DNA from: an uncultured Schlesneria sp.
GTDB taxonomy: Bacteria; Planctomycetota; Planctomycetia; Planctomycetales; Planctomycetaceae
Assembly (NCBI GenBank): GCA_903904835.1
Contig: CAIVEI010000032.1
Location: 62,001-126,000 of the forward strand
Direction of reading: 5' to 3'
DNA length: 64,000 nt
Under the pieces are notes generated by a model, which saw only the letters and a program-made list of their open reading frames with translations, searched no databases and was not told the origin of the DNA. Position numbers and translations under genes: made by a program. Below are positions 10,252 through 50,243 of the stretch, one piece after another; position 1 is the stretch's first letter; each line of letters starts with the position of its first letter.

Positions 10252-12189
10252 CTAGTTTTTGATTGAAGCTAGCGCCTTCATGATTTCCGCTTTTATCCGT
10301 TGCCGTCCGATCGTGGCTCCGTATGTTGTCAGATGATCGTCGTCGAAGTAGATCACATTACGGCCATCCAAAACGAAAGCCTCTGAGTTTTCAACGTAGA
10401 TATCGTAAATCGGTATGATGTCAACACCCCGACGTGTGCTTGCGAGTTTCCGAATGAGGCTTCGCCCGGCATTCACCCTTTCCGTATTTCCGATTGGAAG
10501 GTATTGCTTGCGTCCATCCTCCGGTTTGAATCCTCGGAATATCAAATATTGCAACGCGTTGCGGTTTCCGACAACTGCAAGTTCGGGAGGCTGTTCCATC
10601 AAGAGCGTTCTCGAAGAATGCTGCTCAAGGAGATCCATTAAATCATTTGCATTTGCCTCTATGACATATTCCCATCTGGCACAGAGAATCGTAACGTCAG
10701 GTTTCCATGATTGAATTAGCTCGATTCGTGACTTATCATATAAGTACTTCTCCTCCGAAGTTACGTAGATGCTTCTCTGTGTCCTGCTTAACGGTAGCTT
10801 TATAAATGGGGGGACTGCATTCATTGTGATAATCGACACCTTAAGTTCGATCTCTTCAGCTACGGATCGGATTGTATCAGCCCACATTGCTCCATGAGAA
10901 TCCCCCAAAACAACGATTCGTGGGTTCGTGTTGTCCTGGTTCCCAATGATGATTCCACCGTTTCGATAAGCGTCAAGTGCGGAATCTCGCTTTGGAACCT
11001 CCATCGTGGAAAACATCGTTTCAACCCTGTCATTTCTCAAAATGCGCGGCCTTGAATCATAATAGCGTGCGTAAGAATGTTGTTTTTCAAAAGCGGACGC
11101 GTCGTAGTAAGGTAATGAGGATCTCACGAAGGCGCACAACCCGAGCGTTAATATGTATGCGGCGGAAATCGCCGGAATGTTTCCTTCACGCCGCCGCATT
11201 GGTGTTTCAACGAAGTAATAGGAGACGAGCGAAAGTAAATAGATTGGAGCCAAAAGAATCAACGTTCGCACACCGACGCCGAATTGTTTCGCATAGACCA
11301 GGACGGGCCAGTGCCACAGGTAGAGCGAGTACGAAAGTTGTCCAATATGAACAAATGTCTTATGAGATAAAAGGAGTCGACACACGCGATTTTGACTGAA
11401 TGCAATAACCAGAGCCGTACCAAGAACACTGAATACAATTCCTGCGTTTAAAGTCGGCAGGCAGATAAATGACCAGATGACCATTGAGAGCCCTGAAACG
11501 CCCAGCGCCGAGGACAAGAGAGGTTGTATCCGTTTAACAGGATCGTTTTGTAGAACCAGTGAGACGTAACAGCCGGTTGCAAGCTCCCAGGCCCTGGTCG
11601 GTAGAAAATAGAATGTTGCGACTCGGTAAGACCTGGAACCATACAAGAAAAGCAACATACTCGAAACCAAGACGGCTAGTGTCAGCCCATTTAGCCACTG
11701 CGGTCGTAAGCGGTAAACAACGGCAAAAAAAACTGGAAAAGCGAAATAGAACTGCTCCTCAACCGACAACGACCATGTATGTAAAAATGGAGACTCTTCT
11801 GCTTGTGGATGCCAATAGTCGCCTGCGTCGCGCCAAAAATAGAAATTCGCATAAGAGAAAAGGGCTGCTCTGGCTTGCTTCGCGATTACAGGCCTGTCAG
11901 CTCTGAATCCGAAGAGTTGGGCGAAGAATAACGTCGTCGCAGTCACCAGGATCAGCGCGGGTAGAATTCGCCGTATTCGTCGAGCCCAGAAGTCACGGAA
12001 GGAGAATGTTTGAGTTTCTAGGTCATTTTTCAATCGCGTCGTGATGAGATATCCTGAAATCACGAAAAATACATCGACGCCGGCAAATCCGCCGGGAATC
12101 CATTGGTAATTCATGTGAAACAGGATTACGGCGACGACTGCAAATGCTCTCAGCCCGTCGATTTCGGGCCGATATGTGAGAGGTGACAC
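10252..12189 (-). CDS. OafA/YrhL-type acyltransferase with C-terminal SGNH domain
   Basis: 645 residues from the preferred start. An N-terminal acyltransferase_3 membrane domain (~ten hydrophobic helices, to ~360) opens with YRPEIDGLRA and includes a conserved His (LFHMNY, ~25) and FFVISGYLI. It is followed by a periplasmic SGNH hydrolase-like domain with GDSH at ~429-432 and a late FDDDH near 626. Such proteins move an acetyl or other acyl group from the cytoplasm onto lipopolysaccharide or other surface glycans. The chosen start is a GTG at 12189, with AAAGGG upstream and YRPEIDG six residues in, as in the family. An in-frame ATG at 12303 adds ~38 residues and cannot be excluded. It sits downstream of the GT39-like gene on the same strand. 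Confidence 0.87.
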   Translation of the reverse strand: MSPLTYRPEIDGLRAFAVVAVILFHMNYQWIPGGFAGVDVFFVISGYLITTRLKNDLETQTFSFRDFWARRIRRILPALILVTATTLFFAQLFGFRADRPVIAKQARAALFSYANFYFWRDAGDYWHPQAEESPFLHTWSLSVEEQFYFAFPVFFAVVYRLRPQWLNGLTLAVLVSSMLLFLYGSRSYRVATFYFLPTRAWELATGCYVSLVLQNDPVKRIQPLLSSALGVSGLSMVIWSFICLPTLNAGIVFSVLGTALVIAFSQNRVCRLLLSHKTFVHIGQLSYSLYLWHWPVLVYAKQFGVGVRTLILLAPIYLLSLVSYYFVETPMRRREGNIPAISAAYILTLGLCAFVRSSLPYYDASAFEKQHSYARYYDSRPRILRNDRVETMFSTMEVPKRDSALDAYRNGGIIIGNQDNTNPRIVVLGDSHGAMWADTIRSVAEEIELKVSIITMNAVPPFIKLPLSRTQRSIYVTSEEKYLYDKSRIELIQSWKPDVTILCARWEYVIEANANDLMDLLEQHSSRTLLMEQPPELAVVGNRNALQYLIFRGFKPEDGRKQYLPIGNTERVNAGRSLIRKLASTRRGVDIIPIYDIYVENSEAFVLDGRNVIYFDDDHLTTYGATIGRQRIKAEIMKALASIKN

Positions 12190-45116: not shown

Positions 45117-45389
45117 ATGCCCGATATTCAAGAACTTCCGCTGCTGAAATCGGCGAAGCGTGAAGCGATGGTCGCACTTGGCATCTGGTTGGCAGCGACG
45201 ATTTATTCGCTCGGCTATTGCTTTAAATACGGGTATGGCCGCGACCCTGAATCCTTGACTTACGTGCTTGGCTTTCCGGATTGGGTCTTCTGGGGGCTGG
45301 TTATGCCATGGGGCGCGTGTACGGTCGTGGCAAGTGTCTTCGCATTCTGCTTTATGAAAGATGAAGAGTTGCCTCAAAGCGGTCAATAA
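45117..45389 (+). CDS. YhdT-like (DUF997) small membrane protein
   Basis: 90 residues with two hydrophobic segments (AMVALGIWLAATIYSLGYCF; YVLGFPDWVFWGLVMPWGACTVVASVFAFCFM). The pattern of YGYGRDPESLTYVLGFPDWVFWG matches the YhdT/DUF997 family, which in Escherichia coli precedes the pantothenate symporter PanF. A sodium:solute symporter gene indeed follows. The ATG at 45117 has GAAGGA at normal spacing. Confidence 0.8.
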   Translation: MPDIQELPLLKSAKREAMVALGIWLAATIYSLGYCFKYGYGRDPESLTYVLGFPDWVFWGLVMPWGACTVVASVFAFCFMKDEELPQSGQ

Positions 45390-45438
45390 CTTTCAGGAAT
45401 TCTGTTTTTTCCTCCAACGCAAGGCGACCGATCAACTC

Positions 45439-47178
45439 ATGCTTGCCGCGACAGACATCTCAAATCCCGGATACAGCGTCCTTTTTGCTCTGTTGTTATT
45501 CATTGGGGCGTCTGTCTGGCTGGGAACACTGGCGCAAAAAGCGATGGAAAAGAAGGAATTCCTCAAAGGATTCTTTCTGGGGAATCGTGGCCTGGGGGCC
45601 TGGGCACTCGCCCTAACCGCCACCGTGCAAAGCGGTGGAACTTTCATGGGTTTTCCGGCATTCGTCTATAGCCACGGTTGGATCGTTCTGCTGTGGATCG
45701 GCAGCTACATGGTGGTACCGCTCCTCAGTTTTGCCGTCGTTGGCAAGCGACTGGCCCAGCTTAGTCGAATGACGGATTCATTTACCGTACCTGATTTGTT
45801 GCGCGAACGGTTTGCTGATCCGCGAGTCGGCCTGGTCTCGTCGATCATGATTATCACTTTCATGTCATTTACGATGTTTGCTCAATTCAAGGCTGGGGCA
45901 ACGATTATGAAGCATGCCTGGCCAGGGTCGGGCGTGCTGGCACTATCCGAAGACTATGAACCAACCGCTGCGGAAAAGGCCGAATCAAAGAATGGATCTG
46001 CGGGCGCCGCGGCAAAGTCCGCCTCAAAGCCGATCGATCGTAAATACTATGTGGGATTAGTTGTCTTTACGGTAACCGTCGTTGGCTACACGCTGATTGG
46101 CGGTTTTCTGGCGTCGGTTTGGACGGATCTGTTCCAAAGTGTGATGATGGTCATTGGCGTGACGATCCTTGTCTGCTTAGCTGTTCCGATGGCGGGAGGA
46201 CTGGAACAAGCCACGAAAACGGCCATCGCAAATACGTCACCGGACATCGCATTTGGACCTGGATACAGTACGATCGGGCGGGAGTTCCTGACGCCGGGGC
46301 TGGCTCTTTCGATGTTTTTTATCTGGATATTTGGAGGATTTGTCTCACCCGCCAGCATGGTTCGAGTGATGGCAGCCGAAAGTACGGAAGTGATGCGCAA
46401 GTCGATCTGTCTGTTGAGCTGTTACAACTGCCTGATTTATATCCCGCTCGTGATGACGTGTATCGCAGCACGAACCATGTTGCCCCATCTTGATAAGCCG
46501 GATGAAGTCATACCACGAATGTCGATGCTGGTGACGGAGGGTCTTCCTTTTGGGCCATTCATCAGCGGCTTGATTCTGGCCGCTCCGTTCGGCGCGATTA
46601 TGGCTTCCGTCAGTTGCTTTATCCTGGTCATTTCATCTGGCCTTGTTCAGGACATTTACGTTCGATTCTTGCATCCAACTGCCACCGAAACACAAGTTCG
46701 GCGAGCGACTAATGTGTCGATGGTTAGCGTTGGGCTGATTGCCGTCATCGCGAACCTGGACCCGCCTCAGTATCTGCAGGCTTTAGTGGTTCTGAGTGCT
46801 TCCGGTGGCGGTGCGGCATTTACGATTCCCATTTTGATGGCATGCTATTGGCGGCGGACGACGGCAGCGGGAATGCTGGCAGGAATGTTGGTCGGATTCT
46901 GTTTTTACTTTGGGCTTTCTGCTGCTGGCTGGATACAGAATTGGGCCGCCGCCGCTCCTGAAGGTTCGGCGCTCGCACAATCAGTGATTAATTTCCTGGG
47001 ACCCGATCCAAAAATTGGCGTACCAGGATTATTCCGTCCTTACTATATCTTCGGCATCGACCCAATGGTCTGGAGTCTGGTCGTGTCAGCGATTGCAGGG
47101 GTTTGCACCAGCCTCGTGACGAAGCCCCCATCCGAGGAACACGTCTCGCGATTCTTCGATGTGGCTGTCGCAAAATGA
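45439..47178 (+). CDS. Sodium:solute symporter (SSS family, PanF-like context)
   Basis: 579 residues with about thirteen helices. LGNRGLGAWALALTATVQSGGTFMGFPAFVYSHGW is the family's first-helix block and GGFLASVWTDLFQSVMM is the sixth-seventh-helix block. The pairing with a YhdT-like gene is typical of pantothenate-type symporters, but the substrate is not fixed by sequence. An unusual hydrophilic insert rich in Glu, Ala and Lys (~175-200, EPTAAEKAESKNGSAGAAAKSASK) lies between helices. The start is uncertain: the ATG at 45439 fits the family, and the frame is open back to 45361, overlapping the YhdT-like gene. It is convergent with the ATP-grasp gene (30 bases). Confidence 0.85.
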   Translation: MLAATDISNPGYSVLFALLLFIGASVWLGTLAQKAMEKKEFLKGFFLGNRGLGAWALALTATVQSGGTFMGFPAFVYSHGWIVLLWIGSYMVVPLLSFAVVGKRLAQLSRMTDSFTVPDLLRERFADPRVGLVSSIMIITFMSFTMFAQFKAGATIMKHAWPGSGVLALSEDYEPTAAEKAESKNGSAGAAAKSASKPIDRKYYVGLVVFTVTVVGYTLIGGFLASVWTDLFQSVMMVIGVTILVCLAVPMAGGLEQATKTAIANTSPDIAFGPGYSTIGREFLTPGLALSMFFIWIFGGFVSPASMVRVMAAESTEVMRKSICLLSCYNCLIYIPLVMTCIAARTMLPHLDKPDEVIPRMSMLVTEGLPFGPFISGLILAAPFGAIMASVSCFILVISSGLVQDIYVRFLHPTATETQVRRATNVSMVSVGLIAVIANLDPPQYLQALVVLSASGGGAAFTIPILMACYWRRTTAAGMLAGMLVGFCFYFGLSAAGWIQNWAAAAPEGSALAQSVINFLGPDPKIGVPGLFRPYYIFGIDPMVWSLVVSAIAGVCTSLVTKPPSEEHVSRFFDVAVAK

Positions 47179-47208: not shown

Positions 47209-48216
47209 TCAGTTTGATTTGAAGATTCTGTTGATGAGCGACGTTGCGACATCAATACCAGTCACGCGACCAAACGCCTGCCAACCTGGGACAGCGTTAA
47301 CCTCAATGACATAGCATCGACCGTCTGCGTCATACAGCAGGTCAACGCCTGAGATGAACGCTCCTGTCGTCACGGTTGCCCTTAACGCGAGATCGATTTC
47401 CTGAGGTGTCGGCTGGTGTGGTTCAGCAACAGCTTCGCGGGCGACGTTGGTGCGAAAGTCATTGGCCGACCGACGTCTCATGCCTCCTACTACCTGATTG
47501 TCCAGTACCAGAATTCGGACATCGAAACCGCCATGGTCAATAAACTTCTGAAGGTAGAGCACAGCATTCAGTCGCATCAGGGTACGAAAGGTACGATGGG
47601 CCAGGTCGGGATCGGTAACTCGAACGATTCCTCGTCCTTCGGACCCGAAAAGTGGCTTCACAACAACGTCCCCTCCCAATTGATTGAAGGCTGATAACGC
47701 GTCATCTTCATGCTCGCATACGATCGTTTCTGGAACGGGCAGACCATCGGACTGCAGTCTTGCCGTGGTGAGGTATTTATCGACCGCACACTCGAGCGAT
47801 TTAGGCGAATTAATGACTTTTGTTCCTGCGGCTTCAAGCCGACCGAGCAGGTCCATACGAAAGACGACCTGTTCCAACGAACCTGGAGGCATCGTTCTGA
47901 CGAGGATCACGTCGAACCGAGAATGAAGAGAGACTGTCGTCTCAGCCGCCTGAGGACTGGCCAGACGAATTGATTTTTCTGCGGAAAGACTACCCTGAGA
48001 CTCGATTCCACTTTCCAAACCCATTTCAAATGAATGGCCACCAAACATAACGGCGTTGCATGTGGACAAATTATTCGCAATTAACCTTGAGAAATCGAGA
48101 CGTTCGCAGTCGTGCCCCAACGAGAGAGCGGCTCGCTCCAGGTCGCGGTAGTACCAACTGCTTTCGCTCGCAAGGATGCCAATGTTCAAAGTTTGACTCT
48201 GGAATGGGACTGTCAT
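47209..48216 (-). CDS. ATP-grasp (RimK-like) ligase next to mch
   Basis: 335 residues. Recognisable ATP-grasp features are a pre-grasp domain (~1-110), SPKSLECAVDKYLT, VVKPLFGSEGRGIVRV (the glycine-rich ATP loop) and the late YVIEVNAVPGW (metal-binding E and N). RimK-like enzymes join amino acids, often glutamate, to a carboxylate. In methylotrophs an ATP-grasp gene sits beside mch and is needed for the methanopterin-type cofactor; this gene follows mch by 88 bases on the same strand, so a role in making or glutamylating tetrahydromethanopterin is a reasonable inference. The ATG at 48216 has a weak ribosome site. Confidence 0.85.
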   Translation of the reverse strand: MTVPFQSQTLNIGILASESSWYYRDLERAALSLGHDCERLDFSRLIANNLSTCNAVMFGGHSFEMGLESGIESQGSLSAEKSIRLASPQAAETTVSLHSRFDVILVRTMPPGSLEQVVFRMDLLGRLEAAGTKVINSPKSLECAVDKYLTTARLQSDGLPVPETIVCEHEDDALSAFNQLGGDVVVKPLFGSEGRGIVRVTDPDLAHRTFRTLMRLNAVLYLQKFIDHGGFDVRILVLDNQVVGGMRRRSANDFRTNVAREAVAEPHQPTPQEIDLALRATVTTGAFISGVDLLYDADGRCYVIEVNAVPGWQAFGRVTGIDVATSLINRIFKSN

Positions 48217-48304
48217 TCAGGGATTTGGAAACCCACGGGATCACAAGGCGTGCGTCATCTCGACGCTGCCATTACGAATCTTATTACAAGCCGTCTGATG
48301 ATTC

Positions 48305-49258
48305 TCAGGTGATTCCAAACGATGTTCGCAACACCGCTTCGTTCACATTGCCTGCGACATGAACACGGCCGGTTTCGAGGTTCTGGAAAACGACTTGCGC
48401 CGGGCTGAAAAGCAACGGATCAATTTTATAGAAATCACGTCCGGCCGCTTCGAAGATTTCCAGAAATGGTCTGCCGTAGGATGGAGATGCGAACGAAGGG
48501 ACTCGCTGAGCGATCTCGGCAATCGATTCATCGTCTCCCATCACCCAAAGTGTGACTCGGGCTCCGTAGAGAATGGCATCATTCGTCCTTCCAATCCCTT
48601 CCAGATCGTTCTTGGCAACGGGTGGCAAGGGGGCTGTTCCGTAACCGCTTCGAACGCGATTGACATCGAAGCCAAGTTCATGCAGTTTGTGCATCGCGGT
48701 TTCGATTGACCGGGCTACGACCTGCAAGTTGCCAGCCATACTCGACGTGGGTGCCACGCATAACACGACGTCTTCCGGTTCGACGTCGGTTGCATCCGCG
48801 ATGTATTGGAAGACCTCGGCATCGGGAAGCTTGCCTGATTCAAGGACTCCAACGATCTGATCAGCCTCTTCACGATACCAGAGCTTGTCAAACAACGGCT
48901 CCTTTGCCGCGACGGCACGCATCGGGCCTGAACCCATAGCAAAGAATTTACCGACGTTGATCTGCCATCCCGCATACTGGCTGAAAAGGCAGGCGGCGAC
49001 GGGGGCATCTGTCTCTACAGCAATGTGCGGCCATCCGAGATTGCCAATGATTCCTGGGACCATCGAGACATCGGCCAGACCAGACATGCAGATTGCTGCT
49101 AGTGCAACACCCGCTTCAATTCCCCCTTCAGACTGAACACCGAAATCGAGCAGCAGCCCGTTGTTTTCCACGTCATGGCGAGTGATTCGGTAGTCTTCAG
49201 GGCTTTCGTTAACGTCTTCGATCAGTTGAGAGGCCAGGTCGTTCAGTTGAAGGTTCAT
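48305..49258 (-). CDS. mch: Methenyltetrahydromethanopterin cyclohydrolase
   Basis: 317 residues, the normal length. It hydrolyses methenyl-H4MPT to formyl-H4MPT in the tetrahydromethanopterin-linked C1 pathway (formaldehyde oxidation and detoxification in methylotrophs; methanogenesis in archaea). Characteristic blocks are GGIEAGVALAAICMSGLADVSM, AACLFSQYAGWQINVGKFFAMGSGPMRA, CVAPTSSMAGNLQVVARSIETAMHKLHELGF and RVRSGYGTAPLPPVAKNDLEGIGRTNDAILYG. The ATG at 49258 has no strong ribosome site. The 289 bases upstream separate it from the divergent molybdoenzyme gene. Planctomycetes are known to carry H4MPT genes. The other pathway genes (fae, mtdB, fhc) are not in this window. Confidence 0.95.
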   Translation of the reverse strand: MNLQLNDLASQLIEDVNESPEDYRITRHDVENNGLLLDFGVQSEGGIEAGVALAAICMSGLADVSMVPGIIGNLGWPHIAVETDAPVAACLFSQYAGWQINVGKFFAMGSGPMRAVAAKEPLFDKLWYREEADQIVGVLESGKLPDAEVFQYIADATDVEPEDVVLCVAPTSSMAGNLQVVARSIETAMHKLHELGFDVNRVRSGYGTAPLPPVAKNDLEGIGRTNDAILYGARVTLWVMGDDESIAEIAQRVPSFASPSYGRPFLEIFEAAGRDFYKIDPLLFSPAQVVFQNLETGRVHVAGNVNEAVLRTSFGIT

Positions 49259-49547
49259 TCAAATGCCATCAAAAATTGTGTGTACCGAGTCAGCCCAGCG
49301 AAATCGACTTCGCCAGTCCAACCCGATCCCGGTGCAAGGTACTTATTACTTTTGTGTGTGAGCGAAACCAGCCGTGTTGCGGGCAACAATCGGACGGCGT
49401 TCTCTCACAAATCGAGATTCAGCAGATTATTCAATCCAGAATGGAAATGGGAAACTGCAAGACTCTTCCTCTATAATAACATTTTCCTGTGTCACAGACA
49501 TCCGTCAGCAACACGGTTCTCAAATCCATTTAACAGAGGCGATTAAA

Positions 49548-50243
49548 GTGGAACATGATTCGAAATATCAAGCAGGTGAACCGGTCGAACCGAATCACGT
49601 TCTTGACGGAATCATCATCAGTCCAGACACCTATCGTGAGAATCGAATCCCACCAGGCCAGTCCCGAACGCGAAAGTGGCCGGTTCTGCAATGGGGTCCC
49701 ATCCCAGAGATCGCTGCCGAGGAATGGACCTTTGAGGTGACCGGGCTCGTTGAACGCCCGCTCTCATTCACCTGGAGTCAGTACCGCGCGTTGCCACGTG
49801 TCAGGGTCTTCTCCGACTTCCATTGCGTGACGAAGTGGTCTCGTTTAGGAAACGTGTGGGAAGGAGTCGCTGTCAGCGAATTAGTCGCCCGCGCAGGAAT
49901 CAAGCCCGAAGCGAAATTTGTGATCGCCATGGGCAATGATGACGGTTGGACGACGAACATGCCTTTGGCCGATTTTCTTCAATCAGACGTCCTGCTGGCG
50001 GACACGCACGATGGCGAGCCGATCAACTTCGAGCATGGCGGTCCGGTCAGATTAGTTGTACCGCGACTCTATGCATGGAAGAGCGCGAAATGGTGTCGTT
50101 CGCTGACGTTTCTCGATCACGACAAGCCAGGCCTGTGGGAGCAACAGGGTTACCACAACCACGGTGACCCGTGGCTCGAAGAGCGTTTCGGGTCGGATCA
50201 ACTTCCACCCGGTTGGAACGAGGAAGAAGCTCTTGCGATATGA
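49548..50243 (+). CDS. Sulfite-oxidase-fold molybdopterin oxidoreductase
   Basis: 231 residues. WTFEVTGLVERPLSFTWSQYRALP leads to C93 in FHCVTKWSRLGNVWEG, the cysteine that ligates molybdenum in the sulfite oxidase superfamily. WTTNMPLADF, GGPVRLVVPRLYAWKSAKW and a C-terminal WEQQGYHNHGDPW complete the fold. It has no signal peptide and no haem domain, so it is cytoplasmic or depends on partners, unlike exported MsrP/YedY or SorA. The substrate is unknown (sulfite, other S-oxides and other compounds are possible). The start is a GTG at 49548, with AGAGGC upstream; the frame is open to 49374 without family sequence. It is convergent with the beta-barrel gene (6 bases between). Confidence 0.85.
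   Translation: MEHDSKYQAGEPVEPNHVLDGIIISPDTYRENRIPPGQSRTRKWPVLQWGPIPEIAAEEWTFEVTGLVERPLSFTWSQYRALPRVRVFSDFHCVTKWSRLGNVWEGVAVSELVARAGIKPEAKFVIAMGNDDGWTTNMPLADFLQSDVLLADTHDGEPINFEHGGPVRLVVPRLYAWKSAKWCRSLTFLDHDKPGLWEQQGYHNHGDPWLEERFGSDQLPPGWNEEEALAI

Follow-up and report, generated by a model that had tools for sequence, protein, structure and literature searches.

A mch gene and a putative methylofuran polyglutamate ligase gene form a pair in an uncultured planctomycete

The pairing of mch with a gene for a RimK-type ATP-grasp ligase in the planctomycete DNA described here is real and represents an arrangement of a known kind, in which the name of the ligase can now be sharpened. Specifically, we consider it quite probable, from family membership, phylogeny and gene order, that this protein is the planctomycete MyfB (Orf5), that is, a methylofuran polyglutamate ligase. 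The myfB-like name and the methylofuran-tail function are proposed because of the phylogenetic tree, the predicted fold and the published work on MyfB. In the parts of that work drawn on here, which deal with proteobacteria, Methylorubrum extorquens requires the orf5 product (MyfB) to make methylofuran: mutants without it stop at a Glu2 intermediate, and overexpressing it gives a longer tail (PMC8141765). Genes of the tetrahydromethanopterin (H4MPT) pathway have been known in the phylum since 2004, according to a statement cited in PMC5020050. What is gained in the present case is the replacement of a generic "RimK-like" label by a testable one.

The mch-ligase pair in the window

The window, meaning the whole stretch of 64,000 nucleotides that was analysed, is part of contig C32 of a genome of 8.18 Mb. 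On its minus strand, positions 48305..49258 encode a methenyltetrahydromethanopterin cyclohydrolase (Mch) of 317 amino acids. The original prediction had called this gene unmistakable, an identification borne out by a TIGR03120 score of 397.8 bits, far over the cut-off of 228.8, across positions 2-313 of the 313 of the model, and by a match to Pfam MCH (416.5 bits, cut-off 25). The ligase gene (47209..48216, minus strand, 335 amino acids) lies on the same strand, beyond a gap of 88 bases read from the sequence (48217..48304), exactly the spacing that had been described. Its RimK-like character, claimed at the same time, is reflected in scores over the cut-offs of both Pfam RimK (124.8 bits, cut-off 21) and the RimK family model TIGR00768 (191.1 bits, cut-off 143.4); among the seven TIGR00768 matches of the genome, it is the sole one above the cut-off. 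Co-transcription of mch and the ligase gene appears likely. The pair is flanked by genes for a sodium:solute symporter (45361-47178) and a molybdopterin oxidoreductase (Oxidored_molyb; 49374-50243), for which no link to the pathway was seen, and no tRNA genes were found in the window.

Mch and the ligase would both serve the oxidation of formaldehyde through H4MPT and methylofuran. In particular, Mch would interconvert methenyl-H4MPT and formyl-H4MPT, and the MyfB-like ligase, with ATP, would lengthen the methylofuran side chain glutamate by glutamate; methylofuran is the cofactor to which FhcD, in the following step, would transfer the formyl group of formyl-H4MPT. The substrate and reaction of the ligase and the direction of flux in this scheme are those that we infer, the supporting observations being its family, its fold, the gene order, the co-occurrence with mch and the fact that the genome holds the remaining pathway genes that were sought. 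The ATP-grasp enzyme had originally been put forward as a candidate for cofactor side-chain glutamylation; family, tree and gene order speak for this proposal and point, more precisely, to a MyfB acting on methylofuran. In the literature searched, no measurement of methylofuran in any planctomycete was found.

Family, fold and phylogeny of the ligase

The family models bring in the chief rival of the MyfB reading, namely an MptN-type enzyme that would place glutamate onto (dephospho-)H4MPT, that is, onto the cofactor of Mch itself. MptN_Meth (NF040720) is the best-scoring NCBIfam model for the ligase, which counts against MyfB, and it matches 22 of the 22 rows of alignment A1; moreover, the gene adjoins that of an H4MPT enzyme. 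Its score of 210.7 bits, however, is well below the cut-off of 350, the ligases linked to mch in proteobacteria fall in the same clade as the window ligase, and the dH4MPT of M. extorquens is described, in the part of the source used here, as lacking the group that MptN would extend (PMC8141765). Taken together, we regard an MptN-type function as distinctly unlikely. Alignment A1 includes four proteobacterial rows and 18 of the 19 ligases adjacent to mch in the phylum, that of the window among them, with the shortened open reading frame of locus L057 excluded. A second alignment, A2, employs 36 of 75 open reading frames from 80 further loci, five of which had none that passed the filter.

In a maximum-likelihood tree of 40 rows, the window ligase, 20 planctomycete ligases and six proteobacterial mch-linked ligases form one group with a support of 100/100, and the other side of the same split holds 13 rows, three RimK proteins and ten RimK-like paralogues from the same phylum. 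The tree is rooted at its midpoint and its rows are without MptN and without the MyfB of M. extorquens, so that it does not separate these two. The planctomycete rows were chosen from the 80 further loci (17) and from the loci of the 28 mch-bearing genomes described below (3), and the ten paralogues were likewise a chosen set.

An AlphaFold2 model of the ligase, built with 37 rows, has a mean pLDDT of 86.2. Its nearest solved folds are those of RimK, a poly-alpha-glutamate synthetase (5zct, TM 0.75 by query length), which counts in favour of the MyfB reading; RimK is also the nearest solved structure by sequence. This twofold proximity would equally suit a RimK-like protein modifier, acting for example on ribosomal protein S6 and lying beside mch by chance. 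The model for the RimK S6 ligase (NF007764), however, reaches only 94.6 bits against a cut-off of 331, and RimK and the RimK-like paralogues of the phylum are precisely the proteins that the tree splits off. Residues 60-91 of the ligase model (47944..48039, minus strand) have a pLDDT below 50; this segment spans most of an insertion of some 30-40 residues, at about residues 58-97, that is absent in most relatives in alignment A1.

Gene order and co-occurrence with mch

Conservation of the neighbourhood argues further against a chance association. In a sample of the phylum, mch was found in 28 of 294 genomes, and all 28 carry a full-length ligase scoring 361-466 bits, the next-best paralogue reaching 178 bits. 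The ligase gene lies directly 3' of mch in 19 of the 28. In the other nine, which count against the MyfB reading, it is about 2.7-9.8 kb from mch (four genomes) or far off or on another contig (five). The 80 further loci are those of the best 80 ligase relatives outside the genome, with titles that are nearly all of Planctomycetes: in 54, mch is directly upstream of the ligase, in three it is 565-2928 bases off, and in 23 the sequence retrieved does not include it, a contig edge cutting some of these short. On the strength of the tree and of this adjacency, a RimK that happens to neighbour mch was ruled out as an explanation, and we hold it to be highly improbable.

The same order is encountered outside the phylum. 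Six annotated proteobacterial plasmid clusters, from Azospirillum, Thiodictyon, Aquabacterium, Paraburkholderia, Phyllobacterium and Azoarcus, display the succession RFAP synthase, mtdB, ATP-grasp (orfY), mch and RimK-type ligase, the last being labelled hypothetical in Azoarcus. Among the matches listed (40 of 143), at least 29 of the 36 plasmid records with mch have a RimK-family match no more than 300 bases downstream, and in one plasmid record of the archaeon Natronorubrum no RimK-type ligase follows mch. Within the 80 further loci, five preserve the proteobacterial order orfY-mch-myfB-orf7, and the mch-ligase pair may thus be the remnant of a formerly larger, older cluster. In two of the 80, fhc genes share the locus of the ligase.

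Pathway genes on other contigs of the genome

The pathway had been described as scattered or partial, with its other genes not near the pair. The latter observation holds for the entire contig: a search of the contigs of the genome located the other pathway genes on eight contigs besides C32, and none on C32 itself. Specifically, fae is present in two copies, on C81 and C51; on C81 it adjoins mtdC-like and orfY-like genes (Pfam Mpt_N and ATP-grasp_3), whose products are 29-35% identical to the MtdB and some 27% identical to the OrfY of proteobacteria, respectively. Two copies of fhcD occur, on C49 and C66, with fhcA and fhcB beside that on C49; a second copy of fhcB is on C95, fhcC on C42, mfnB on C89 and mfnF on C169. 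The genome-wide check proposed with the original prediction thus returned matches for fae, an mtdC-like gene, fhcABCD and cofactor genes of the methanofuran type, and the idea that no other H4MPT genes exist in the genome does not hold. The H4MPT/methanofuran pathway is scattered and, as far as searched, complete. Of the two options it is scattering that stood, because the genome carries the other genes looked for; a partial pathway was ruled out on finding them on other contigs.

These genes have a bearing on the function of the pair. On the one hand, methanofuran-type cofactor genes (mfnB, mfnF and the orfY-like gene) together with fhcA, fhcB, fhcC and fhcD in the genome support the MyfB reading. 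On the other, the dispersal over so many contigs would suit a functionless relic of a decayed pathway, against which stand the facts that all pathway families searched are present as open frames above the cut-off and that the ligase retains the residues invariant in both A1 and A2; we give a relic hardly any credence. As separate observations, the second fhcD (L018:777-1703) and the second fae (L014:9009-9800) are diverged, with 39% and 36% identity to the respective first copies, and no neighbouring pathway genes were seen at either.

Two predicted types of terminal complex

On C49 (L017:8038-9390 and 10700-11050), fhcB encodes the catalytic cysteine of FwdB and has a fwdD homologue and hypB close by. 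The product of this fhcB scores 483 bits against TIGR03129 (cut-off 327.8), and 387 and 358 bits against the solved FwdB chains 9sfi_Q and 5t5i_B, compared with 52 bits against the FhcB of M. extorquens (6s6y_B); in the alignment, it keeps the metal-ligand cysteine and the four cysteines of the 4Fe-4S cluster, as in FwdB. The fwdD homologue matches five solved FwdD chains with E-values from 1.1e-14 to 1.4e-5 and reaches 69.2 bits with NF042908, below the cut-off of 175. The C49 complex is thus predicted to resemble a true Mo/W formylmethanofuran dehydrogenase. The second fhcB, on C95 (L101:8722-9999), has glycine at the position of the catalytic cysteine, and the pathway in this genome may therefore have two endpoints, a dehydrogenase-like and a hydrolase-like complex.

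Among the 28 mch genomes, nine have an FwdB-like fhcB above 480 bits, and fwdD matches scoring 71 bits or more occur in these nine and in one more genome, which is 83% complete; two further weak fwdD matches, inside frames of 984-989 amino acids, were not counted. The metal-ligand position of the nine FwdB-like proteins is cysteine in six and an in-frame TGA in three. In 20 other planctomycete FhcB rows it is cysteine (4), glycine (5), serine (1) or another residue or a gap (10, of which those of G064 and G133 are weak matches). L084-L086 (G281, G185 and G274) were left out of this alignment because their best matches resembled molybdopterin enzymes of other kinds, as was an additional copy from G087, the locus of which was not retrieved.

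Genomes with the hydrolase-type complex, with the dehydrogenase type or with both all retain the ligase, which makes them a natural set for a comparison of tail length. Four genomes (G061, G117, G130 and G148) carry the ligase with only a dehydrogenase-type FhcB, and we know of no need for a long cofactor tail in this type, a point that counts against the MyfB reading. Since these four have that type alone and the genome studied here has both, a tail made by MyfB might serve, also or instead, a Mo/W formyl-methylofuran dehydrogenase (FwdB with cysteine or selenocysteine, and FwdD) and not just the methylotroph-type hydrolase complex, in which case formaldehyde could go to CO2 on one tethered cofactor. 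We advance this possibility tentatively and deem it rather unlikely. The more interesting question becomes why genomes with only the dehydrogenase type retain a tail ligase.

Probable selenocysteine at the metal-ligand position of FwdB

The three in-frame TGA codons fall exactly at the metal-ligand position of FwdB (L064 in G148, L065 in G117 and L066 in G266) and probably encode selenocysteine. A selB above the cut-off is present in six of the 28 mch genomes, including all three with TGA, and in G266 selA follows selB; the probability of the overlap between selB and TGA by chance is 0.006, a figure that ignores relatedness, two of the three TGA genomes belonging to one genus. Stems of a SECIS hairpin fold after the TGA with weak z-scores of just -1.2 to -2.0, and no tRNA-Sec was found near selB in the six stretches. 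The genome of the window has no selB over the cut-off, and its FwdB-like FhcB uses cysteine.

A planctomycete FwdD and a selenocysteine FwdB were initially considered new, a claim that was dropped as both were reported by Kim et al. in 2016, who described, in the portion of the article relied upon, a planctomycete fmdDBAC operon, a selenocysteine fmdB in a Rhodopirellula and glycine-type homologues (PMC4807772). As far as the cited part of another article goes, fwdD is stated to be absent from Planctomycetes (PMC5020050), which is at odds both with Kim et al. and with the fwdD homologue on C49.

Comparison with known systems

With respect to the fmdDBAC operon, as it appears in the part of Kim et al. 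used here (PMC4807772), C49 likewise has a fwdD-like gene near fhcB, fhcA and fhcD; unlike in the operon, its copy has cysteine in place of selenocysteine, and fhcC lies apart from these genes, on C42. RimK, the poly-alpha-glutamate ligase of S6, has the fold and the ATP-grasp domain in common with the window ligase and belongs to a separate clade. The MptN of methanogens, a tetrahydromethanopterin:alpha-L-glutamate ligase, provides the best model, yet one whose cut-off the protein does not reach. Like the MyfB of M. extorquens, the window ligase is a RimK-type ATP-grasp protein; it clades with the mch-linked ligases of proteobacteria, sharing 31-33% identity with the four that are included in A1 (the M. 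extorquens protein is not among these comparisons), and occupies the same slot after mch as in the six plasmid clusters. It differs from the MyfB type in its extra segment and in that neither orf7 nor fae comes after its gene, mch being the sole adjoining gene of the pathway.
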